Origin: Muricauda sp. SCSIO 65647
Lineage (GTDB): Bacteria > Bacteroidota > Bacteroidia > Flavobacteriales > Flavobacteriaceae
Assembly: GCF_021534965.1 (NCBI RefSeq)
Contig: NZ_CP091037.1
Span: 3,417,501 to 3,481,500 of the forward strand
Direction: 5' to 3'
Length of the DNA: 64,000 nt
Each line of letters begins with the position of its first letter. The first letter of the stretch is position 1. The position numbers and the translations under genes were made by a program. The notes beneath the pieces were generated by a model that saw only the letters and a program-made list of their open reading frames with translations, was not told where the DNA came from and did not search any database. Below are positions 3,443 to 13,422 of the stretch, one piece after another.

Positions 3443-3805
3443 ATGATGAGGCTACTCAACCATTTGGACAGACTAGGGACCGAACTCGAACATTTCTCTT
3501 ACGAAGAGTTAAAGATTTCAGAAGCGATACAACTTAAACAGCACTACATGGTGCTGCAAGAAAGACTTCACCAAAACATTTTTGGTCTGGCCGAAACTGA
3601 CTTGGCAGTCGAGCAACTGCCTAAAGAGACAGCTTTCGAATCGACTTTGTTGAAGTCAAAAGTTTCTTTGGATGAACTTCAACAATTGATTGCACAATTA
3701 AGGGAATCAGACCTGGACCCGACGCAGCGTATGCTCGTAAAAAGAATACAATTGGTCTCCAATAACATTGGAGATGTGCTCAATACCACTAAAACTCAAA
3801 AATAA
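3443..3805 (+). CDS. Small helical protein of unknown function, first gene of the exopolysaccharide-like cluster
   Basis: 120 residues. I do not recognise a family. The sequence is strongly helical, rich in Leu, Glu, Gln and Lys, with no signal peptide or membrane segment, so a small cytosolic four-helix or coiled-coil protein is likely. It sits 22 bases before an HPt protein and a receiver protein, and all following genes run the same way. Its fold class and place suggest a partner or adaptor of the phosphorelay, but that is inference only. ATG start at 3443, directly followed by a second ATG. Confidence 0.6.
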   Translation: MMRLLNHLDRLGTELEHFSYEELKISEAIQLKQHYMVLQERLHQNIFGLAETDLAVEQLPKETAFESTLLKSKVSLDELQQLIAQLRESDLDPTQRMLVKRIQLVSNNIGDVLNTTKTQK

Positions 3806-3827
3806 CGGTTCACAAAATAGCATAGTT

Positions 3828-4238
3828 ATGGAAACAAAGATCACCCCCGCAGAAATCGAATCACATTTTAAAGACCTTGAGAAAAGTTATGACTTGCAGG
3901 GATTGTTACAAGAATGCATGGGACAAACCGCGTTGTTGGAAGAATTGATTCGGTTGTTCAAACAAAATGTACTCGAATTTGTTGGCAATGTCAAAGTGCA
4001 TTTGACCAATGATGATATGAAAGCACTTGGTTTTGCTTGCCATAAGATGAAATCTGGATTGAAAATGATGAAGGCCAATGGTCTGTTACAGATTGTGGAG
4101 CAATTACACCTCGCGAGTAAAACAGAGAAAGACGAAAAGCATATGAACTTCTTGTACAATCTTTTCATTGAAGAATATACCGTTCTCGAAAAACAGATGG
4201 ATAGTGAGTACAAGCGAATGCAAAAAGAAGAAATATAG
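3828..4238 (+). CDS. Histidine-containing phosphotransfer (HPt) protein
   Basis: 136 residues from ATG 3828; an upstream in-frame start at 3768 would overlap the previous gene and adds a tail that does not look like protein. The motif ACHKMKSGLKMM matches the HPt signature H-x-K-x-K/S-x, with His72 as the expected phosphoryl-accepting residue, in an all-helical protein. HPt proteins relay phosphate between receiver domains of hybrid kinases and response regulators. The receiver gene starts 8 bases downstream, so they probably work as a pair. No cognate histidine kinase lies next to them. Confidence 0.8.
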   Translation: METKITPAEIESHFKDLEKSYDLQGLLQECMGQTALLEELIRLFKQNVLEFVGNVKVHLTNDDMKALGFACHKMKSGLKMMKANGLLQIVEQLHLASKTEKDEKHMNFLYNLFIEEYTVLEKQMDSEYKRMQKEEI

Positions 4239-4246
4239 ATTGGATT

Positions 4247-4627
4247 TTGAGAGATAGAAAAATTTTATTGGCCGAAGACGATGAAATGCTTGCCTCTTTA
4301 CTGCAGTTTTGGTTAGAGAAAGAAGGATATGAAGTGGGTATTGTATCAAACGGATTGGAGGTCAAGCAATCACTTGAAAAGGCATTGCCCGATATCATGA
4401 TCAGCGATATTATGATGCCCTATTTTTCGGGCATTGAGTTGGTCGGTCATATCAGGAATGATCTGAAAGCCAATATGCCTATCATTCTTATATCATCGGC
4501 CTCAAATGATGAGAATATTCTCAACGCCTTTGAATTGGGCGCCAACGATTTTCTTTCAAAACCCATAAGCCCTTCCGAGCTATTGGTAAGGGTCTCACGG
4601 GCATTGAAGGCAGTGAATACCAGTTGA
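4247..4627 (+). CDS. Stand-alone response regulator receiver protein
   Basis: 126 residues, one REC domain and no output domain. Conserved sites: acidic pair Asp11-Asp12, phospho-acceptor Asp54 in SDIMMP, hydroxyl residue near Ser83-84 in ILISSAS, and Lys105 in SKPIS. The start is TTG at 4247; the REC fold begins immediately after it, so little can be missing. Single-domain receivers act by binding partners such as kinases or synthases. With the HPt protein just upstream and a HEAT scaffold and GT2 synthase downstream, it could control polymer synthesis post-translationally (inference). Confidence 0.87.
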   Translation: MRDRKILLAEDDEMLASLLQFWLEKEGYEVGIVSNGLEVKQSLEKALPDIMISDIMMPYFSGIELVGHIRNDLKANMPIILISSASNDENILNAFELGANDFLSKPISPSELLVRVSRALKAVNTS

Positions 4628-4699
4628 TAAATTAAATACCAAACCAAACAAACCAAACTACTAAACTACCACTCATCAACCTCCCCCATATACATACCG
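4628..4699 (+). other. G-free A/C-rich spacer ahead of a TTG-start gene
   Basis: This stretch has no G on the plus strand and is built of short AAC/ACC/CTA runs. It separates the receiver gene from the HEAT gene, the only sizeable gap (95 bases) in the cluster. It would be unstructured in RNA. A similar G-poor run precedes the TTG-start glycosyltransferase at 16819. Confidence 0.5.
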
Positions 4700-4722
4700 A
4701 TCTACTTTGGGATCTCACCATT

Positions 4723-6768
4723 TTGTTCACGGTGCTGGGTGTCCTATACTTCTTTTTTATCTTCTTTTTCAAAAGAAAGATTTCACTCAACGTTCAAAAA
4801 CTTTCCACAAAGAAAAAAGAACTGGCCCCGATTATCAGCAATTTTCTCTTTCATGACGATAAGGGACCTGTTGAAGAACAAAAAAGTTACATACAGCTGA
4901 AAATCGAGATTAGGGATGCCTTGAAAAATCACGCCTTTAGAAAAATACTTTCAGAGATTTTGTTGGACTTGGAGAAAGATGTATCAGGAGAGACCAGAAA
5001 AAAATTGCACAGGTTGTATGATGAACTGGGGCTTCACCTCGATGCCTATCGAAAATTGAAAAGTTGGCGTTGGGAGATCGTTTCACAGGGTATTCTCGAG
5101 CTCACCCAAATGCAAAGGGTGGATGCCTATCCGTTTATCACCAAATTTCTGAATGACCGTAGAAGTGTCATACGAAAGCAAGCGGAGATTTCCACAGTTT
5201 CATTGAAACCAGAGGGCATCAGTCATTTTTTGGATACCACCCGATATGGCATATCAGAATGGCAACAGTTGAAAATAATGGAAGAATTGAGGGGGATGGA
5301 GAATTTTCGTCCGCCCCGATTCGCTACCTGGTTGATTTCCAGAAATCGCGATGTAGTGTTGTTTTCTCTTAGGTTGATGCGCCACTACAACCAAAATAAT
5401 GCCGAAAAATCGATCATTGAACTGATCAAGCACAAAGACGATTATATAAAGTCTGAAGCTATTTGCTGTATCAAGGAGTTTTGTATGCTAAAGGCCCTTA
5501 AACCATTGAAAGCAGTATTTCGAAGTTGTAGTGAAATGGTCAAAATTGAGATTTTGGATGCCATCGCCACACTGGGCAGTGAAAGTGAAATTGAGTTTCT
5601 GCTCAAGGCAGAAAAGCATGAACCGTCTTTTATGGTGCGTACCAAGGCCTTGACCGCCATCAATGATCTAGTGCCCGATACCATTATTCCCACCAAAGAT
5701 ATTATGTCAAAATTCAAGAAAGACACCAAAGACCGATTGGATAAAAAACTTAAAGCTTTTGTGAAAAATGCCAAAGATGAAAACGGTACTGTCGAAGATT
5801 CTGGGGAGGCGGGAGTTGAAAATATCAATGACGACGAGCTTTCAGTAGATATCGAAGTCTTTGAGATCGATCCTGATACCATCTCGATCAAAGAAGAGGA
5901 GCGAGAAGATGATGGTGAAAGAATAATGACGTTTGACCATGACAAGACTGATTTCGAAATAGGCCCGATCGAACAAGGCCTTGATGACGCTATCAATACG
6001 CAGCTGGGTTTGGTCAATGCAGAAGCCGAAGAAGAGCAAAAGCCACAGGGTGAAAATGATCTTAAGGAAGAATACCAAAGAATGTCGCCCCCAGAACGAG
6101 AAATGCTCATCGATACTTTAGAGGTTTCCAACTCGGATCGAGATATTCCCGTATTGGAAGATTTGATAGAGCAGGAGGAAAGCTCAGAGTCAGGTTTCCG
6201 TATATTCAAAATGCTGAAAAACCTCAAGAGCCCATCCAAAGAAATACCACCCGTCGAAGAAGAACCATTTTACGATTCAAAAGAGCTGTTGGTCGGGGCA
6301 AACGACAGTATTTTCTATCCGTTGTTTGAATATGCAACCGATCAGGTTTCAAAAATGGCCCTATTGAAAGAAATGGCTTCAGTGGGCGATGAACGCGATT
6401 TGGCCATGCTTGAAGAATTGTCTCAAGATGAGGATCCAAAATTGGCCAAGCAGGCCAAAGATGCCAAAGAAAAGCTACTTAAGAAATTGACCTCAGAAGA
6501 ATCTTTAATTGAAGAAGACCCTGAAAAATCAACGGTCAGACCTGTAACCACCGAAAAAGAACCATTGCATTCTGAAGAATTGGAAGAGGCGATCATGGCT
6601 ACCGGAGTTGAAAAATCTGGGGAAGACGAAGATGGGTTGATGCCCATGGAGTTGTGTTTTCTGCATGATGAATTTGGTATCGACCCTTCAAGAGAAGAAG
6701 ATGACGAGCTTAATTTCGAGTTGGCCGATGAATTTTTCTTGCATCAAGACGGTACTTTTTCTGATTAA
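4723..6768 (+). CDS. Membrane-anchored HEAT-repeat protein with acidic linker
   Basis: 681 residues. One hydrophobic segment (about residues 2-16) is followed by a cluster of Lys/Arg, so by the positive-inside rule the bulk should be cytosolic. Residues about 90-340 form helical pairs of the HEAT/PBS-lyase type; 350-510 is strongly acidic and low in complexity; 530-600 holds further HEAT-like helices; the tail is again acidic. No catalytic motif is seen. HEAT solenoids are protein-binding scaffolds. Its position between the receiver gene and the GT2 synthase suggests a link between them (inference). The TTG start is uncertain: the frame stays open upstream without an ATG. Confidence 0.72.
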   Translation: MFTVLGVLYFFFIFFFKRKISLNVQKLSTKKKELAPIISNFLFHDDKGPVEEQKSYIQLKIEIRDALKNHAFRKILSEILLDLEKDVSGETRKKLHRLYDELGLHLDAYRKLKSWRWEIVSQGILELTQMQRVDAYPFITKFLNDRRSVIRKQAEISTVSLKPEGISHFLDTTRYGISEWQQLKIMEELRGMENFRPPRFATWLISRNRDVVLFSLRLMRHYNQNNAEKSIIELIKHKDDYIKSEAICCIKEFCMLKALKPLKAVFRSCSEMVKIEILDAIATLGSESEIEFLLKAEKHEPSFMVRTKALTAINDLVPDTIIPTKDIMSKFKKDTKDRLDKKLKAFVKNAKDENGTVEDSGEAGVENINDDELSVDIEVFEIDPDTISIKEEEREDDGERIMTFDHDKTDFEIGPIEQGLDDAINTQLGLVNAEAEEEQKPQGENDLKEEYQRMSPPEREMLIDTLEVSNSDRDIPVLEDLIEQEESSESGFRIFKMLKNLKSPSKEIPPVEEEPFYDSKELLVGANDSIFYPLFEYATDQVSKMALLKEMASVGDERDLAMLEELSQDEDPKLAKQAKDAKEKLLKKLTSEESLIEEDPEKSTVRPVTTEKEPLHSEELEEAIMATGVEKSGEDEDGLMPMELCFLHDEFGIDPSREEDDELNFELADEFFLHQDGTFSD

Positions 6769-6784
6769 AACGAGATAAGAAAGA

Positions 6785-8215
6785 ATGGATAGCGGACTGT
6801 TCAATATCATTCTTGAGTACATCAACATTGTCTTTTTGATGTTTACCACGGTATTGTTCGTGGCGTTCAGTTTTATGGGCTACCTGTCTACTCGAAATTC
6901 CATTCACTATAAAAACAAAAACAGCTTTGGTGACCTGTCAAAGGTAATGGCATCTCCTTTGGCCCCTGGCATTACGATCATCGCGCCCGCCTATAATGAA
7001 GAACTGACCATTGTGGAGAGTGTTCGCTCGCTCTTATCGCTCAAATATGTGAACTACGAGGTAATGGTGGTCAATGATGGCAGCAAAGACAACACGTTGC
7101 CAAAAATGATCGAAGCCTATGGACTTGAAAGGGTTGAGCGACCCATTGACCCCAATTTGAAAGCCAAGCCGATCAGGGGTATCTATAAATCAAAGCATCG
7201 CACGTTCTCAAAACTGACCGTAATAGACAAAGAAAACGGAGGCAAGTCAGATGCGCTCAATATTGGGATGCATCTTTCAGAAAACCGATATGTGGGCTGT
7301 ATTGATGTAGACTGCCTATTGATGCCCGATGCCTTGTTGCATGTAGTGAAAAACTTCTTTCAGCGCACAAAAAAAAGGGTTATAGCGGTCGGTGGTGTCA
7401 TTCGGGTGGCCAATTCGTGTAAGATTTCTGGGGGCACTTTAGAAGAAATACGCCTGCCAAAGAGTTGGCTGGCACGGTTTCAGTTGCTTGAGTACACCCG
7501 TTCGTTTCTTTTGGGAAGAATGGCATGGGGGCGAATCGACAGCCTTTTGATCATTTCAGGGGCCTTTGGCTTTTTTGATCGTGAAATCGCCTTGGCCGCC
7601 GGCGGCTACGATACCGGCACCGTCGGTGAAGATATGGAGATTGTCTTCAAGATGCGCCGCTATATGCACGAACGAAGAGAACCCTATACGATAGAATATA
7701 TTCCCGATCCGTTATGCTGGACCGAAGTGCCCGAAGATGCAAACATATTGATAAACCAGCGTGACCGTTGGGCCCGTGGCAATCTAGAAACGCTATACAA
7801 GCACAAAGACATGTTCTTCAACTCAAAATTTGGTAGGCTGGGGCTGATTAGCTATCCCTACTGGTTTTTCTATGAGTGGTCGGCACCGTTATTAGAGTTT
7901 TTTGGCTTTTTCTCCGTCGTAATTTTTTGGTATCTGGGCATCTTGAACTGGGATTTTTTCTTTGCACTGACGGCTACCATATACATGTTTTCGATCATGT
8001 TCTCGTTCTATGCCATTCTTTGGGATGTCTATACCTATAACGAGTACAGAAAAACGAAAGACATTCTGATTCTTATGTTTTGCGCGATGATCGAACCGTT
8101 CACATTTCATCCACTGGTCGTTTGGGCCTCAGTAAGGGGCAACATGACAAAACTGTTCAGAAGAAAAACGGGCTGGGGTGTACAAGTACGCAAAGGTTTG
8201 GTAAGGGCCACTTAA
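6785..8215 (+). CDS. Processive family 2 glycosyltransferase (PgaC/cellulose-synthase-like)
   Basis: 476 residues. An N-terminal membrane segment (about 12-33) is followed by a GT-A domain and about four C-terminal membrane helices (about 360-455). Processive GT2 motifs are present: VVNDGS near residue 98, DVD at 174-176 for metal and nucleotide-sugar binding, GED at 281-283 for the catalytic base, and QRDRW at 325-329, the acceptor/channel motif. Such enzymes polymerise sugars and pass the chain through the inner membrane. The sugar cannot be told from sequence. It lies 16 bases after the HEAT gene and 10 before the LtaS-like gene. Confidence 0.88.
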   Translation: MDSGLFNIILEYINIVFLMFTTVLFVAFSFMGYLSTRNSIHYKNKNSFGDLSKVMASPLAPGITIIAPAYNEELTIVESVRSLLSLKYVNYEVMVVNDGSKDNTLPKMIEAYGLERVERPIDPNLKAKPIRGIYKSKHRTFSKLTVIDKENGGKSDALNIGMHLSENRYVGCIDVDCLLMPDALLHVVKNFFQRTKKRVIAVGGVIRVANSCKISGGTLEEIRLPKSWLARFQLLEYTRSFLLGRMAWGRIDSLLIISGAFGFFDREIALAAGGYDTGTVGEDMEIVFKMRRYMHERREPYTIEYIPDPLCWTEVPEDANILINQRDRWARGNLETLYKHKDMFFNSKFGRLGLISYPYWFFYEWSAPLLEFFGFFSVVIFWYLGILNWDFFFALTATIYMFSIMFSFYAILWDVYTYNEYRKTKDILILMFCAMIEPFTFHPLVVWASVRGNMTKLFRRKTGWGVQVRKGLVRAT

Positions 8216-8225
8216 ATGTTTTGAT

Positions 8226-10607
8226 ATGAATACAAGTAAACTCGATAGATATACCTTAAAGCAGTACACAAGACTGACCATTGCATTCTTTCTGTGCCTG
8301 TTGCTGTTATCGGTTTGTCAATATACCATTCTTTATTTCAAAGGGGTGGTAGAGGCTATATTCAGCACCAGTTTTTTCATTGCTGTCGCGCACCAATTGG
8401 GTTTCGCCTCTGTTATGGCCGTGATACTGCTATTCCCCTTTAATTTTTGGGAAAACCTAAGACCTAGGTACGGGTTCAACCTCGTTTTTGTACTGCTTGC
8501 CCTTTTATTGATCATTGAGGCCATGCTCATTGCCTATTATTGTACGGCCCTTGTCCCGTTGGGGTCTGATTTATTGGGCTATAGCTTTGCCGATATCAAA
8601 GAGACGGTATCAAACTCGGGAGGCATTTCCTTTTTGCCCATTTTGGGGCTGGTGGCCATTATTGCGGCATTCTTTGGGCTGTACAAACTGACTTCGAGGT
8701 ATTACCACCATATCGGTAGAATGTATCCGTTTACCATCATTCTTTTCAGTCTGTTCATCTCTACGCTTTTTTTGGATGGAAAGCCCATCAATCAAAGTAA
8801 GACCCAATACTTGGCATTGAACCTTTACCGTTCAACAACAGAAGACACCTCGTACGAAGCCGATGTGGAATATCCCTTGATCAAGTCGCAACATACCGAA
8901 AACGTATTGGGTGGGTATTTTGAACTGAAGGAAGAAAAACCCAACATCGTTATGATCATCGTGGAAGGATTGGGTCGCGATTTTGTCGGCGAAGGAGCTG
9001 AATTTGGAGGTTTCACGCCCTTCTTGGATTCCCTCAGCCAGCAATCGCTCTATTGGGAAAACTGTTTGAGCACCACTGGTCGTACGTTTGGGGTGTTGCC
9101 CGCGATTACGGGTTCGTTGCCCTTTGGGAAGAGTGGTTTTATGGAGCTTGAAAAATATCCGAACAAGCTGACCTTGTTCAGCATCTTGAAGAACAATGGT
9201 TATCACACCTCGTTCTATCAAGGCACCAATAGCGCCTTTGATGGGGTAGATCGTTTTCTTCTTAGCGAAAATGTTGACTTTGTTCTCGATAAGTCCGGTT
9301 TTGGGGTCGATTACCAAATACAGTCTGAAGATGCCAATGGGTCGTCATGGGGGTACCCTGACAGGGAATTGTTCAGAAAGAGCATGACCTTACCCCGCGA
9401 TAGCGATAAACCCAGAATGGAGGTCTATATGACCATTAGCAACCATGAGCCCTTCATACCCCCGAACCAAGACCATTATGAAAAGAAAGTGAAAGAGTTA
9501 CTGCCTGGTAGCGGCCATGACTCAAAAACGAAAAGAGTCATTAAAAAGAACAGCAATATTTTTGCCACACTGCTATATACAGATGATGCGTTAAAGTTCG
9601 TAATCGAAGAGTATAAAAAGCTGCCCAATTATGGGAACACCATTTTTGTCATCACGGGCGACCATAGGTTGATACCCATACCCCAACGAAACACGATAAG
9701 CAGGTTTCATGTGCCCTTGATAGTGTACAGCCCAATGCTGAAAGAGACCAGAAAGATGAGTTCGGTTTCTTCCCACTTTGATGTGGCGCCCACCCTGTTG
9801 GCCCTGCTAGAAAGCCAATACGAAATGAAAATGCCCAAAAAAGTGGCTTGGATGGGCGGTGCCCTTGATACGTATGAAGAGTTCAGAAGCACCAAAGATA
9901 TACCGTTGATGCGAAATAAAAATGAATTGAAAGAATATGTGAGTGGAGAAAAAGTCTACTCAGATGGTTCGGTATATGAAATTGATGAAGACATGAATTT
10001 CAACAGTGCATTGGGAGGTTCTAAAATTGAACAAAAGCTGAATGCGTTCAAATCGATGAACGCCTATGTGACCACCAATGATAGGATCATACCCGATAGT
10101 CTTGCCATTTTTACCATCAAAAAAGAAAAATTCACCGACAGTGAGATTGTGTGGATTAACAGCCTTTACAACGGATTCAACTCTGATACCTACTACATGA
10201 TCGCCAGAGACTTGGCATTTGATGATGAGTATGACAAATCATTGTTGTTATGCCGTTACATTCTTTCAGAGCGTCCGAGCCATATTGACACCAAGGTACT
10301 TACGGGCCGGGTGAATGCATGGAGGGGAAATCGGGAAAAAGCAATAGAAATATTGAGAGAATGCATCGATCAGAATCCCAATTACATCGATTCATACGCA
10401 GCACTGTTCGACGTCTATTTTTGGGATGCACGGCACAAAGAAGCCTTACAACTCGTAGAACAGGTACAGCGCAATAGCTCAAGTGTCGATGAGATTGCCG
10501 ATAAGATCGCAAGGGCAAAAAGAGAAGCTAGAAAAGCAGGGGTATCATTGGCAAAGACACGTAAAAAACCAGAAAAACAAGATGTGGTGGCATCTCTAGA
10601 CCAATAA
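8226..10607 (+). CDS. LtaS/OpgB-like sulfatase-fold phosphotransferase with C-terminal TPRs
   Basis: 793 residues. Five N-terminal membrane helices (within about 15-185) precede an extracytoplasmic sulfatase-superfamily domain (about 238-580). Active-site elements: Glu247 in IIVEGLG, probable nucleophile Thr287 in TTGRTFG, ISNHEPF and ITGDHR metal ligands. Relatives transfer phosphoglycerol or phosphoethanolamine onto lipids or glycans. The last about 150 residues are tetratricopeptide-like helices, an unusual addition to this family. Placed between a GT2 synthase and an outer-membrane barrel, it may decorate the polymer during export (inference). Its stop overlaps the next start by one base (TAATG). 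Confidence 0.82.
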   Translation: MNTSKLDRYTLKQYTRLTIAFFLCLLLLSVCQYTILYFKGVVEAIFSTSFFIAVAHQLGFASVMAVILLFPFNFWENLRPRYGFNLVFVLLALLLIIEAMLIAYYCTALVPLGSDLLGYSFADIKETVSNSGGISFLPILGLVAIIAAFFGLYKLTSRYYHHIGRMYPFTIILFSLFISTLFLDGKPINQSKTQYLALNLYRSTTEDTSYEADVEYPLIKSQHTENVLGGYFELKEEKPNIVMIIVEGLGRDFVGEGAEFGGFTPFLDSLSQQSLYWENCLSTTGRTFGVLPAITGSLPFGKSGFMELEKYPNKLTLFSILKNNGYHTSFYQGTNSAFDGVDRFLLSENVDFVLDKSGFGVDYQIQSEDANGSSWGYPDRELFRKSMTLPRDSDKPRMEVYMTISNHEPFIPPNQDHYEKKVKELLPGSGHDSKTKRVIKKNSNIFATLLYTDDALKFVIEEYKKLPNYGNTIFVITGDHRLIPIPQRNTISRFHVPLIVYSPMLKETRKMSSVSSHFDVAPTLLALLESQYEMKMPKKVAWMGGALDTYEEFRSTKDIPLMRNKNELKEYVSGEKVYSDGSVYEIDEDMNFNSALGGSKIEQKLNAFKSMNAYVTTNDRIIPDSLAIFTIKKEKFTDSEIVWINSLYNGFNSDTYYMIARDLAFDDEYDKSLLLCRYILSERPSHIDTKVLTGRVNAWRGNREKAIEILRECIDQNPNYIDSYAALFDVYFWDARHKEALQLVEQVQRNSSSVDEIADKIARAKREARKAGVSLAKTRKKPEKQDVVASLDQ

Positions 10608-11890
10608 TGGGGAAAGAAAAAACATATATACCATTGTTGTTAATTCTCCTTGGCTATTTGGCATGGGGCCAAGACTTCGCCTATACCGATATGGGCGAGA
10701 CCTCTTACACAGATGCACATCATTTGGCCTATGAAGGTGACCATGGATCTGCCAAAAAAATACTTCTTAATGTACTTGCCAAAAGTCCTGATAACGTACA
10801 AGCACGATCGTTGTTGGCGAGTACCTATAGTTGGGCCGGGCAATATGAAAAAGCCAGGACCGAATTCAACAAAGCGACCTCAAAAGAGCGAAATGACCGC
10901 GATATCTGGATTGCCGCCATCAAGAACGAACTCTACGCCAAAGAAGGTGCCACAGCCTTGGGGTTGGCCAACAAGGCCCTGTCTTACCTTAAAAGCGATG
11001 ATGAAATAGAACGGCTGGCCCTCATGGCCAGGGCGCATATCGAGAACCGCGACTATCCTGAAAAAGGCTGGTACAACCAAGAGTCGACAGTAGTGTCCAT
11101 CAAGTCGAAAAAAGCAAAAAAGGCTGTCCAAAAAAAGGAAACTTCTGACAAAAAGGCGTTGCGCAATAGAATATCGGTCAACAATGCGCTTACTGTATTC
11201 AGCGAACAATTTGAGCCACAGCTCTTATCGAGCGTTTTTTATCGACGGCAGACCTCGGTGGGTAGCATCATGCCCAGAATCAATTATAGCAACCGCTTGG
11301 GCAGACAGGGGGTGCAGTACGATATCGATTTCTGGCCCAAGTTCTCAAAACGCTTCTATGCGTATCTGAACTATGGATATTCCAATTCTGATCTATTTCC
11401 CAAACATAAGGTGGGTGGCGATCTTTATGTCAACTTACCCTGGGCCCTCGAATTCTCGGCAGGCGGGCGCTATATCGTGACCAATAGTAGTGACATCAAG
11501 GCCATTACCAATTCTTTGGGCCATTACCGGGGCAATTACTATTTCTCGTTACGTTCGTTCATCACACCAAGACCGGACGGACTGACCCGTGTTTCGGGCA
11601 ATCTTTTGGTGCGCAAATATTTAAAGGACGCCCAAAACTTCATGGGCATCAATGTGGGCATGGGTGTCTCGCCCGAACTGCGGCAAATAGTCGCTGATGA
11701 TCGATTATTGGCCGAAACACTGTTTTTTATAGAGTCGCAACGTCTGAATCTCGAATATCAGTTCACGGGAAAGGATAATCCGAATATCTATCGGGCCAGA
11801 TTGGGGGTTCGCAGGCAAGAACTGGCCTCTGACTCCGGTAATTTCTTTTGGGGAGTGACCGCGGGCATTGTCTACGAGGTCAACTTCTGA
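10607..11890 (+). CDS. YaiO-type outer-membrane beta-barrel protein with N-terminal TPRs
   Basis: 427 residues. A signal peptide ends near LAWGQ (residue 22). Residues about 30-150 are TPR helices, 165-185 a Lys-rich linker, and 190-427 alternate aromatic strands typical of a beta-barrel, ending in a C-terminal Phe, the usual outer-membrane sorting residue. TPR plus barrel is the layout of PgaA and, in pieces, AlgK-AlgE and BcsC, which export polysaccharides made by processive GT2 enzymes. That makes it a good candidate outer-membrane exit for the polymer made by the upstream synthase (inference). The next gene converges 13 bases away. Confidence 0.78.
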   Translation: MGKEKTYIPLLLILLGYLAWGQDFAYTDMGETSYTDAHHLAYEGDHGSAKKILLNVLAKSPDNVQARSLLASTYSWAGQYEKARTEFNKATSKERNDRDIWIAAIKNELYAKEGATALGLANKALSYLKSDDEIERLALMARAHIENRDYPEKGWYNQESTVVSIKSKKAKKAVQKKETSDKKALRNRISVNNALTVFSEQFEPQLLSSVFYRRQTSVGSIMPRINYSNRLGRQGVQYDIDFWPKFSKRFYAYLNYGYSNSDLFPKHKVGGDLYVNLPWALEFSAGGRYIVTNSSDIKAITNSLGHYRGNYYFSLRSFITPRPDGLTRVSGNLLVRKYLKDAQNFMGINVGMGVSPELRQIVADDRLLAETLFFIESQRLNLEYQFTGKDNPNIYRARLGVRRQELASDSGNFFWGVTAGIVYEVNF

Positions 11891-11903: not shown

Positions 11904-13145
11904 CTATTTTAAAGACTTGTCCTCAGGTATGTCAAATACCCAATTATCGGCATACATACCGTACACCAGTCCGAGTTCGTTGTCATACACATACCGTTCA
12001 TCCTTTCCAGGGTCAAAATTTACGTTATATACATAGACCTTGATGCCGGCATCCCGCAATTGCAGCATCAATTTTTTTTGCTGTTGGATGATTCTTCGTG
12101 ATACCGCTGCATACTCAACATTGTTAATGGCCAAATAGTTCAGTTTATCACCTTTCAATTTTAGCAATGGGGTCTGTGAGATCATGGGCTTGATACCATT
12201 TCTCGAGGCTTCTTCAATGGCCATTTCGCTGAAAAGTTCCATAATCAATCGGTCTTTGTCGATAAATTTTTCAGCAAAGGCCATGGGGTCGCTAAGCTTG
12301 TCGGTCACCAATATCGCATCGGGATGTGCCTTGAACCAGTCATTGATGCCCTGCATATCTAAAGTGGTATAATCACCATAAATAGTGTGTTTCTTGAATT
12401 CTTCAAGGGTAGGGGGCAATGTGCCCGAATAATCGGTAAATCGTGACCACATGTTCCAATCATGGGCGGCCACCATTTTGCCGTCTGTTGTTTTGATGAT
12501 ATCCAATTCAAAAAGACGGAACCCTTTGGCATAGTTCTGGTCAAGGGCCTCTTTGCAATTGGTGTACGCGTGACCATCTATCGCACCACCGGCATGGGCA
12601 ATGTACCTATCGGCACTGGGTTCGAATTCATAGGTTTCCTTCGGAAAATAGATATGTTCGTCATTTATATCATTGGGAACAGGTATGGACAATGTCACTT
12701 TGATATCATCGAGCAGCTCGTACACTTCCCCTTTCAGGTTGTGCATGACATAGGCCTGTCGGCCTTTCAGGGAAGCCAGTTTTGAAAACTCCATTTCAGT
12801 GAGCTCTTTCGATTGCTTAAACGCACCTTTGGTGGCCGAATCATGTGCGAGAATGGCAAATAGGGCTCCATTTTTTTTCATGGTGCGCATTGTTTCCAAT
12901 GCTGCGGTCAGTTCTTCATCGCTTCCGTAGGTATCATAGGTGCGGAATTCAAATGTTGTAGGTGTGCTGAAGTGAAGTAGGGTCAGACCACGCTGTACGG
13001 TCTCTTTTTGTCCGGCAACAATGAAATGACTCCTTTGCTTGGCATTGAAGCTGTAGCTGTTGAGTTCTACAGAAGATGGTTGTTGTGCAAGGGCGATCTG
13101 TACCGTGCTTTGCAATAGCAAAACTGACAGCAATAGCTTAGCCAT
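11904..13145 (-). CDS. Exported glycerophosphodiester phosphodiesterase with ILEI-like domain
   Basis: 413 residues from ATG 13145, which gives a clean signal peptide ending at ALAQ; longer starts are less likely. Residues about 25-160 resemble the ILEI (FAM3/PANDER) beta-fold: RGLTLLHF, a TYDTY segment and FAILAHDSATKGA. The C-terminal half is a GDPD domain with HAGG, FELDI and AAHDW, the catalytic His, Glu/Asp and His. GDPD enzymes cut glycerophosphodiesters to glycerol-3-phosphate and an alcohol. It converges with the cluster that holds an LtaS-like transferase; a shared phosphoglycerol substrate is possible but unproven. Confidence 0.8.
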   Translation of the reverse strand: MAKLLLSVLLLQSTVQIALAQQPSSVELNSYSFNAKQRSHFIVAGQKETVQRGLTLLHFSTPTTFEFRTYDTYGSDEELTAALETMRTMKKNGALFAILAHDSATKGAFKQSKELTEMEFSKLASLKGRQAYVMHNLKGEVYELLDDIKVTLSIPVPNDINDEHIYFPKETYEFEPSADRYIAHAGGAIDGHAYTNCKEALDQNYAKGFRLFELDIIKTTDGKMVAAHDWNMWSRFTDYSGTLPPTLEEFKKHTIYGDYTTLDMQGINDWFKAHPDAILVTDKLSDPMAFAEKFIDKDRLIMELFSEMAIEEASRNGIKPMISQTPLLKLKGDKLNYLAINNVEYAAVSRRIIQQQKKLMLQLRDAGIKVYVYNVNFDPGKDERYVYDNELGLVYGMYADNWVFDIPEDKSLK

Positions 13146-13422
13146 GATATTGATAGAGTAGGAGGTCATCGTTTTCAGTGTTGTTGCTTGGTGCGGTAGC
13201 ATTTCGAAGGATGGTGCCATTCGCCAATAACTACCAAAAACACAACGATTTTGGGGGTTGCTTATTGCTGAAACGGCAATGGTTTTCCCTTTTAATCGAG
13301 AAAAATTTCTTTTGGCCGATAATGTAAAGCGGTGGCAAACCACACAAAATTTTAACAAAAAGGGCATTTTTGCCCATTTTAAGACGTTTTACAACAAAAA
13401 ACATAAAATTCACCACATTTTA
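13146..13422. other. Intergenic region with no supported gene
   Basis: The stretch between the phosphodiesterase start and the promoter of the small ORFs holds no convincing gene. An open frame crossing it on the plus strand lacks any protein-like pattern. It should hold the minus-strand promoter of the phosphodiesterase, but I see no clear TAnnTTTG on that strand. Confidence 0.4.

Follow-up and report, generated by a model that had tools for sequence, protein, structure and literature searches.

How do Bacteroidota that have no GGDEF protein gate a processive polysaccharide synthase? We know of no description of such control. The question is raised by a cluster of seven genes in Muricauda sp. 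SCSIO 65647, a member of the Flavobacteriaceae whose genome is a single contig of 3.81 Mb. The cluster lies within a stretch of 64,000 nucleotides (contig NZ_CP091037.1, positions 3,417,501 to 3,481,500), referred to here as the window, and encodes a family 2 glycosyltransferase (GT2) together with a histidine-phosphotransfer (HPt) protein, a lone receiver, a HEAT-repeat protein, an LtaS-like transferase and a barrel protein. Judged from its sequence, it is a real and widely conserved synthase cluster with a regulatory core as its novel element. The encoded proteins probably build a surface sugar polymer, decorate it and export it, and the GT2 appears to be switched by a phosphate relay instead of the usual small-molecule signal. 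A sequence-only reading had described seven co-directional genes with gaps of 8–95 bases and a 1-base overlap; the open reading frames (ORFs), all on the + strand, and their domains were recovered at the same positions as follows.

3443..3805, + strand: hybrid histidine kinase remnant, 120 amino acids (recognized by alignment to an intact relative kinase)
3828..4238, + strand: HPt protein, 22-base gap after the kinase remnant (PF01627, 29.3 bits, cut-off 24.6)
4247..4627, + strand: lone receiver, 8-base gap after the HPt gene (PF00072, 96.2 bits, cut-off 30.2)
4675..6768, + strand: HEAT-repeat protein with an N-terminal hydrophobic (membrane) segment (HEAT_2, 50.6 bits, cut-off 27.7)
4723-6768, + strand: the HEAT ORF as counted from a TTG, 95-base gap after the receiver gene
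6785..8215, + strand: processive-type GT2, 16-base gap after the HEAT gene (PF00535/PF13641, 73.8 bits, cut-off 23.3)
8226..10607, + strand: LtaS/OpgB-type membrane transferase with C-terminal repeats resembling tetratricopeptide repeats (TPRs), 10-base gap after the GT2 gene (PF00884, 108.6 bits, cut-off 25)
10607..11890, + strand: TPR protein with a YaiO-family barrel, 1-base overlap with the LtaS-like gene (PF19413, 206.6 bits, cut-off 23.9)

Conservation of the gene order beyond close relatives had been set beforehand as one test of the sequence-only reading, and the cluster passed it. With the LtaS-like protein as query, matches at E ≤ 1e-20 were obtained in 25 of 60 genomes of the family, the source genome included. 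Full-length orthologues (38–73%) were present in 11 of the 24 other matched genomes and domain matches only in 13, and the order receiver, HEAT, GT2, LtaS-like, YaiO was intact in all 11 genomes with a full-length orthologue. Relatives' loci were labelled with L-numbers, and 80 of them, the best 80 of at least 561 confirmed matches, were named and compared. In 79 of these the LtaS-like gene is followed immediately by the YaiO gene (the exception, L128, ends there), and in 72 it is preceded immediately by the GT2 gene; L107, L137, L139 and L158, which have no adjacent GT2, are contig ends. The HEAT gene is directly 5′ of the GT2 gene in 66 of the 72 loci with an adjacent GT2. The other six either reach a contig end (L146, L155, L160) or have overlapping ORF calls (L118, L125, L144). 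A receiver precedes the HEAT gene directly in 64/66, and the two loci without one (L135, L176) are at contig ends. All five genes are in order in 66 of the 80 loci if HEAT and GT2 genes may overlap by as much as 130 bases. Since the gene order is conserved over such large distances, the cluster can be regarded as more than a chance neighbourhood. In two Flavobacterium loci the first set is closely followed, downstream, by a second one, HEAT–GT2–YaiO, that lacks an LtaS-like gene (L151:13906-17749 and L159:13884-17724).

In a draw of 395 genomes from the phylum, the LtaS-like protein was found in 38 (E ≤ 1e-40, source genome included) and the GT2 in 83 (E ≤ 1e-90); when the lists were compared by eye, all 38 LtaS-positive genomes were among the 83. 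The two genes are not always adjacent: among 20 phylum stretches, L077, L081, L079 and L096 contained no GT2, L079 being a 6-kb contig and the L096 genome carrying its GT2 on another contig. GT2 loci were then drawn from 20 of the 45 genomes that are GT2-positive and LtaS-negative. A receiver lay within 4 kb of the GT2 in 20/20, in 15 of them no more than 1.5 kb away and in the same orientation, and a HEAT protein (E < 1e-4) beside the GT2 in 17/20, with weak signals in L179 and L195 and none in L178. YaiO was present in 12 of these 20 stretches and an LtaS-like gene in none. Because receiver and HEAT protein accompany the GT2 also in LtaS-negative genomes, we take receiver–HEAT–GT2 to be the core of the module. 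On a tree of 59 GT2 rows, a quick tree with 24 of its 55 inner branches open, the presence of LtaS requires at least 11 changes and GT2–LtaS fusion at least four.

A search of the source genome with the GGDEF model (PF00990) gave no match (control positive in 8/14). Control of the cluster by cyclic di-GMP (c-di-GMP) is therefore unlikely. According to PMC8461298, c-di-GMP acts post-translationally on the synthase complex in the poly-N-acetylglucosamine (PNAG), cellulose and alginate systems. The combination of a receiver without an output domain, a membrane HEAT scaffold and a GT2 could form a natural replacement for such control.

The first gene of the cluster had been read as an unknown helical protein. 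It is the N-terminus and decayed HisKA domain of a hybrid histidine kinase, which the nearest relatives still encode in intact form. Residues 4–114 align with residues 21–134 of the 587-amino-acid kinase of L097 (34% identity, E 6e-16 in a database of 4 sequences), and comprise the conserved N-terminal helices and the HisKA helices without the phospho-histidine box (H-box). By Pfam alone the remnant had no significant match. The HisKA phospho-histidine, HATPase and internal receiver of a complete kinase are not encoded in the window cluster. Many relatives have at the head of the cluster a hybrid kinase (573–608 amino acids) made up of the conserved N-terminus, HisKA, HATPase, receiver and HPt; the HisKA-HATPase-REC-HPt architecture was found in the intact kinases of L040, L043 and L045. 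Lutibacter-type loci have a longer kinase (773–785 amino acids), with PAS domains in L047, the one scanned. The window HPt shares about 50% identity with the HPt portion of the kinases of L098 and L124, and is the former C-terminal domain of the same hybrid kinase, with H72 as its phospho-histidine. A single protein of N-terminus and HPt occurs in Zobellia, Euzebyella and Pseudozobellia, the internal receiver is retained in L111 and L116, and a degenerate kinase core in L112.

On a tree of 47 rows the kinase is reduced in 13 and full in 20 of the 33 rows of the window's clade (window included), and full in all 13 scored outgroup rows; L135, cut by its contig, was left unscored, and L128, with its kinase split over two ORFs, was scored full. 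The best tree requires at least six changes. Its backbone is open, and the argument for repeated loss rests on nested cases: the window among three full sisters (support 100/100), L122 with L117 (100/99) and L112 with L101 and L115 (99/96), L105 and L112 being draft metagenome assemblies. The window's GT2 and LtaS-like genes group with those of L124 (labelled Croceitalea), L144 (Croceivirga) and L097 (Flavobacteriaceae) with support 100/100.

The phospho-histidine is kept in 56 of 57 HPt sequences (the exception, in L131, adjoins a second HPt with the histidine) and in 11/11 checked rows that have lost the kinase core. The lone receiver, of 126 amino acids and without an output domain, keeps the phospho-site positions D, D/N, D, S/T and K in 74/74 sequences, and both acceptor residues, H72 of the HPt and D54 of the receiver, are present in the window. 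The kinase core was thus lost several times while HPt and receiver retained their phospho-residues, and because these are kept in rows with a lost kinase core, both proteins seem to stay under selection after the kinase has disappeared. Only two HPt matches occur in the source genome. Several of its hybrid kinases end in a receiver domain (L199, L208, L200, L203) and are possible phosphate donors in trans; L198, a further hybrid kinase, is bigger and might have an output of its own. No relocated cluster kinase turned up in this genome; the closest hybrid kinase, L199, is 35% identical and lacks an HPt match. Receiver and membrane HEAT protein are the partners that accompany the GT2 most constantly, and a search for GGDEF proteins in the genome gave none. 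The claim that the cluster is phosphorelay-controlled holds in part, since the kinase core once encoded here has been lost and a different kinase would have to supply the phosphate.

The true start of the HEAT protein is uncertain. It probably lies upstream of the TTG at 4723, because a homologous N-terminus (LINLPHIHTDLLWDL) is in frame there without ATG, GTG or TTG. The frame stays open through this conserved N-terminus in the region 4636-4723 of the window, and a rare start codon may be used.

The GT2 has the D, DxD, GED and QxxRW residue set of processive polysaccharide synthases. Its catalytic residues D98, D148, D174/D176, GED and QRxRW are identical in 75/75 sequences, window included. 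The best curated families are PgaC_IcaA (136.1 bits, cut-off 422.3) and an XrtG-associated glycosyltransferase (115 bits), both far below cut-off. A GT2 of the same family lies inside an 862-amino-acid ORF at L177:8078-10666, the C-terminal half of which matches none of the cluster profiles.

The last gene product passes the cut-offs for the YaiO barrel (PF19413, as listed; TIGR04390, 179.1 bits, cut-off 32) and for TPR_19 (44.9 bits, cut-off 25). An AlphaFold2 model (mean predicted local distance difference test score (pLDDT) 86, predicted template-modelling score (pTM) 0.54) shows an N-terminal helix, a TPR domain (residues 29–146) and a 14-stranded barrel (187–426). Foldseek placed BcsC (9b8a) first by E-value, OmpG at rank 4 and PgaA (4y25) at rank 8 (TM score 0.52). 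With VIA-align the top barrels were FadL/TodX, CymA and OmpG (Z 18–21, root-mean-square deviation (rmsd) about 3–4); the absence of BcsC and PgaA from its 50 rows is no evidence against likeness to them. Processive GT2, LtaS-like protein and TPR/barrel protein are thus as the sequence-only reading had claimed, by domain match and by conservation of their order.

In the LtaS-like protein the active-site residues E247, T287, H407, D479 and H480 are intact. Its model (mean pLDDT 86.4, pTM 0.85) starts at the N-terminus with five long helices, followed by an alkaline-phosphatase-superfamily domain and, at the C-terminus, by helical repeats; these correspond to TPRs that score 23.5 bits, just below the cut-off of 25. 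The nearest structures by Foldseek were VP1736 (3lxq) and LtaS/LtaP (template-modelling (TM) score about 0.70 by target), ahead of PbgA, sulfatases and MCR-1. The protein thus has both the metal and nucleophile residues and the fold of LtaS; it falls short of the curated cut-offs for lipoteichoic acid synthase (52.2/970 bits) and OpgB (43.8/574 bits). A sulfatase, which PF00884 might also suggest, was rejected: the formylglycine motif of sulfatases is C/S-x-P-x-R, and here the nucleophile is the threonine of GRTFG, which aligns with the threonine of an LtaS homologue, there is no formylglycine motif, and the nearest structures are of LtaS type. All seven site residues (nucleophile T or S) are kept in 58 of 72 sequences, window included, and two more differ at H495 only. 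GT2 and LtaS-like domain are fused in a single ORF in L084, L085, L086, L089, L091, L092 and L093 (1134–1270 amino acids) and in L142 (1296 amino acids). Because the LtaS-like gene is absent from many clusters and its active site is dead in one clade, phospho-decoration is optional and does not define the system. In the 12 loci L126-L137, LtaS-like proteins without metal ligands are retained beside GT2 and barrel genes, as a possible pseudo-enzyme.

The models used found neither a phosphatidylglycerol nor a cardiolipin synthase in the source genome, the sole PLDc_2 protein being polyphosphate kinase. A single CDP-alcohol phosphatidyltransferase was found (PF01066; control search positive in 14/14), nearest to PssA (92.7 bits, cut-off 107) and scoring 26.4 with pgsA. 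The pgsA model is weak in this family, with 0/60 genomes above cut-off, and the argument rests on the single PF01066 gene, itself below the PssA cut-off. A phosphatidylserine decarboxylase is encoded at 505-1356 of the window. Phosphatidylethanolamine is the likeliest donor, and because no phosphatidylglycerol or cardiolipin synthase was found, the donated group is probably phosphoethanolamine; phosphoglycerol is made unlikely by the same result.

We propose that a hybrid kinase, local in many relatives and acting in trans here, would phosphorylate the HPt, from which the phosphate would move on to the lone receiver, at D54. Next, the receiver would bind to the HEAT array that the membrane-anchored scaffold exposes in the cytoplasm, and the scaffold would open or assemble the GT2, which would polymerise a nucleotide sugar and move the chain across the inner membrane. 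In the periplasm the LtaS-like enzyme, coupled to the GT2 and in some relatives part of one polypeptide with it, would add a phosphoethanolamine-type group, and the TPRs may steer the chain to the YaiO barrel for exit. That the cluster is a synthase-dependent surface (exo)polysaccharide system, in which receiver and membrane HEAT scaffold replace the c-di-GMP-binding proteins of the PNAG, cellulose and alginate systems, is the account we favour, with a little better than even confidence. A wider proposal is more tentative, and we would put it somewhat below an even chance: that there is a phylum-wide Bacteroidota class of synthases, switched post-translationally by a phosphorylated lone receiver via a membrane HEAT scaffold as a c-di-GMP-free counterpart of PilZ/Alg44/PgaD control, and that in several lineages, including that of the window, the sensor kinase has decayed to a kinase-less HPt–receiver pair fed by other hybrid kinases.

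The cluster shares with PNAG PgaABCD a processive-type GT2, best matched by PgaC_IcaA among curated families, and a TPR and barrel protein for which PgaA is among the Foldseek matches. Unlike that system, its GT2 reaches 136 of the 422 bits needed, it has the receiver and HEAT genes and an added LtaS-like transferase, and its genome has no GGDEF protein that we found; a scan confined to the seven cluster genes and three flanking genes detected no PgaB deacetylase or PgaD domain. With the cellulose system Bcs it has in common the GT2, the TPR and barrel protein (BcsC being best by Foldseek E-value) and a periplasmic decoration enzyme of the alkaline-phosphatase superfamily, BcsG being the phosphoethanolamine transferase that decorates cellulose in the periplasm. 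It differs in that the cluster encodes neither BcsB nor a PilZ domain, and in having a transferase that is LtaS/OpgB-like in sequence and fold; BcsG was matched on one fused relative only, at E 0.14. LtaS and OpgB resemble the window protein in the five long N-terminal helices preceding the catalytic domain (in the model), in the E/T/H/D/H site and in the fold; the window protein is set apart from them by scores far below both curated cut-offs, by its C-terminal TPR-like repeats, by its place beside or fused with a GT2, and by a genome in which phosphatidylglycerol synthase was not found. E. coli YaiO, for which we know of no described function, belongs to the same barrel family (PF19413, TIGR04390), whereas the window barrel sits in a receiver–HEAT–GT2–LtaS cluster. 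No description of the gene set was found in the open-access literature, as covered by titles and abstract openings.

A number of observations weigh against the favoured account. In four of the 80 loci (L150, L152, L164, L167) the GT2 is not adjacent to the LtaS-like gene although the stretch continues; in L150 and L164 receiver, HEAT and GT2 lie about 5–7 kb downstream of it. The GT2-only genomes were covered in 20 of 45 cases, and no barrel was detected in eight of those 20 stretches. The BcsC match has a low TM score (0.28–0.35) and an rmsd of 24.9, either because the domains are turned differently or because the match is partial, and OmpG superposes better (TM 0.63 by target); the modelled barrel has 14 strands, compared with 16 in PgaA and BcsC. 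The GT2 falls well short of the cut-offs of all named synthase families. No kinase or HPt lies upstream on the same strand in 23 of 79 tree rows, among them the Flavobacterium-named loci, although some of these rows are contig ends or have the kinase elsewhere; together with the missing kinase core of the window, this leaves the phosphate flow putative. Finally, the LtaS-like site is dead in 12 of 72 relatives, in which H407, D479 and H495 are replaced and, in three of the 12, the nucleophile T/S is lost as well.

The product could alternatively be periplasmic or lipid-anchored, like OpgB-decorated osmoregulated periplasmic glucans (OPGs) or a teichoic-acid-like glycolipid, with the barrel serving something else. 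Among named families the transferase does come closest to LtaS and OpgB (52 and 44 bits), its closest folds include LtaS structures, and the LtaS-negative stretches without a detected barrel point the same way. We nevertheless consider it unlikely: the likeness of the GT2 is to PgaC (136 bits), not to MdoH, the synthase of OPGs (14.6 bits), the barrel gene follows the LtaS-like gene directly in all but one of the 80 loci, and BcsC is the nearest structure to the TPR and barrel protein by Foldseek E-value. The LtaS-like protein might also serve the GT2 chiefly in a structural way, as a scaffold whose TPR-like repeats reach towards the barrel, its catalysis being secondary or lost. The fusions with GT2 would fit such a role, as would the dead-site relatives, which keep the GT2 residues (75/75) and, as far as their contigs reach, the gene order; the same three residues are also lost in L043, L044, L045 and L090. 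On the other hand, 60 of the 72 sequences keep the site either whole or but for H495, and the 14 dead-site rows of the 79-row tree form one clade, so that inactivation looks like one event; we judge a mainly structural role to be similarly improbable. Slightly less probable still is that receiver, HPt and HEAT protein lie together solely to be co-expressed and have a different target, the GT2 being constitutive. It would agree with the lack of any receiver–HEAT or HEAT–GT2 fusion among the annotated loci. It would leave unexplained the receiver found within 4 kb of the GT2 in every one of the LtaS-negative loci, where a random point has a chance of about 0.09 each (a rough figure taken from the receiver density of the source genome, which ignores the kinship of the genomes), and the receiver has no output domain of its own.

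Downstream of the cluster, and convergent with the barrel gene, lies a further gene.

11904..13367, - strand: GDPD-family phosphodiesterase (PF03009, 34.4 bits, cut-off 23.6)

This gene is a neighbour, and its membership of the cluster is uncertain. It is present beside 25 of 31 loci of the window's clade (L097-L125, L139, L144), and beside 0/12 dead-site loci (the incomplete L128 among them) and 0/37 other loci. It is missing from six intact-site loci of the window's clade and from intact-site loci of other clades. Because the contrast stems from a single clade and intact-site loci without the gene exist, a link to LtaS-like activity is tentative. More distant versions of the cluster contain a protein of about 390 amino acids with an N-terminal hydrophobic segment and many invariant residues (L083:10662-11831, L084:10865-12049, L085:4613-5800, L087:14224-15375, L088:3613-4788, L192:2007-3155), for which no convincing Pfam, NCBIfam or PDB match was found. 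Rfam gave no match in the window.

Bacteroidota are major users of glycans in the sea and in the gut. The conserved receiver–HEAT–GT2 core would offer a small, testable switch for a synthase in this phylum, and the repeated loss of the sensor kinase, with HPt and receiver kept, a natural experiment in phosphorelay rewiring. The fusion of the LtaS-like domain to the GT2 suggests that a single machine can both synthesise a polymer and phospho-decorate it.

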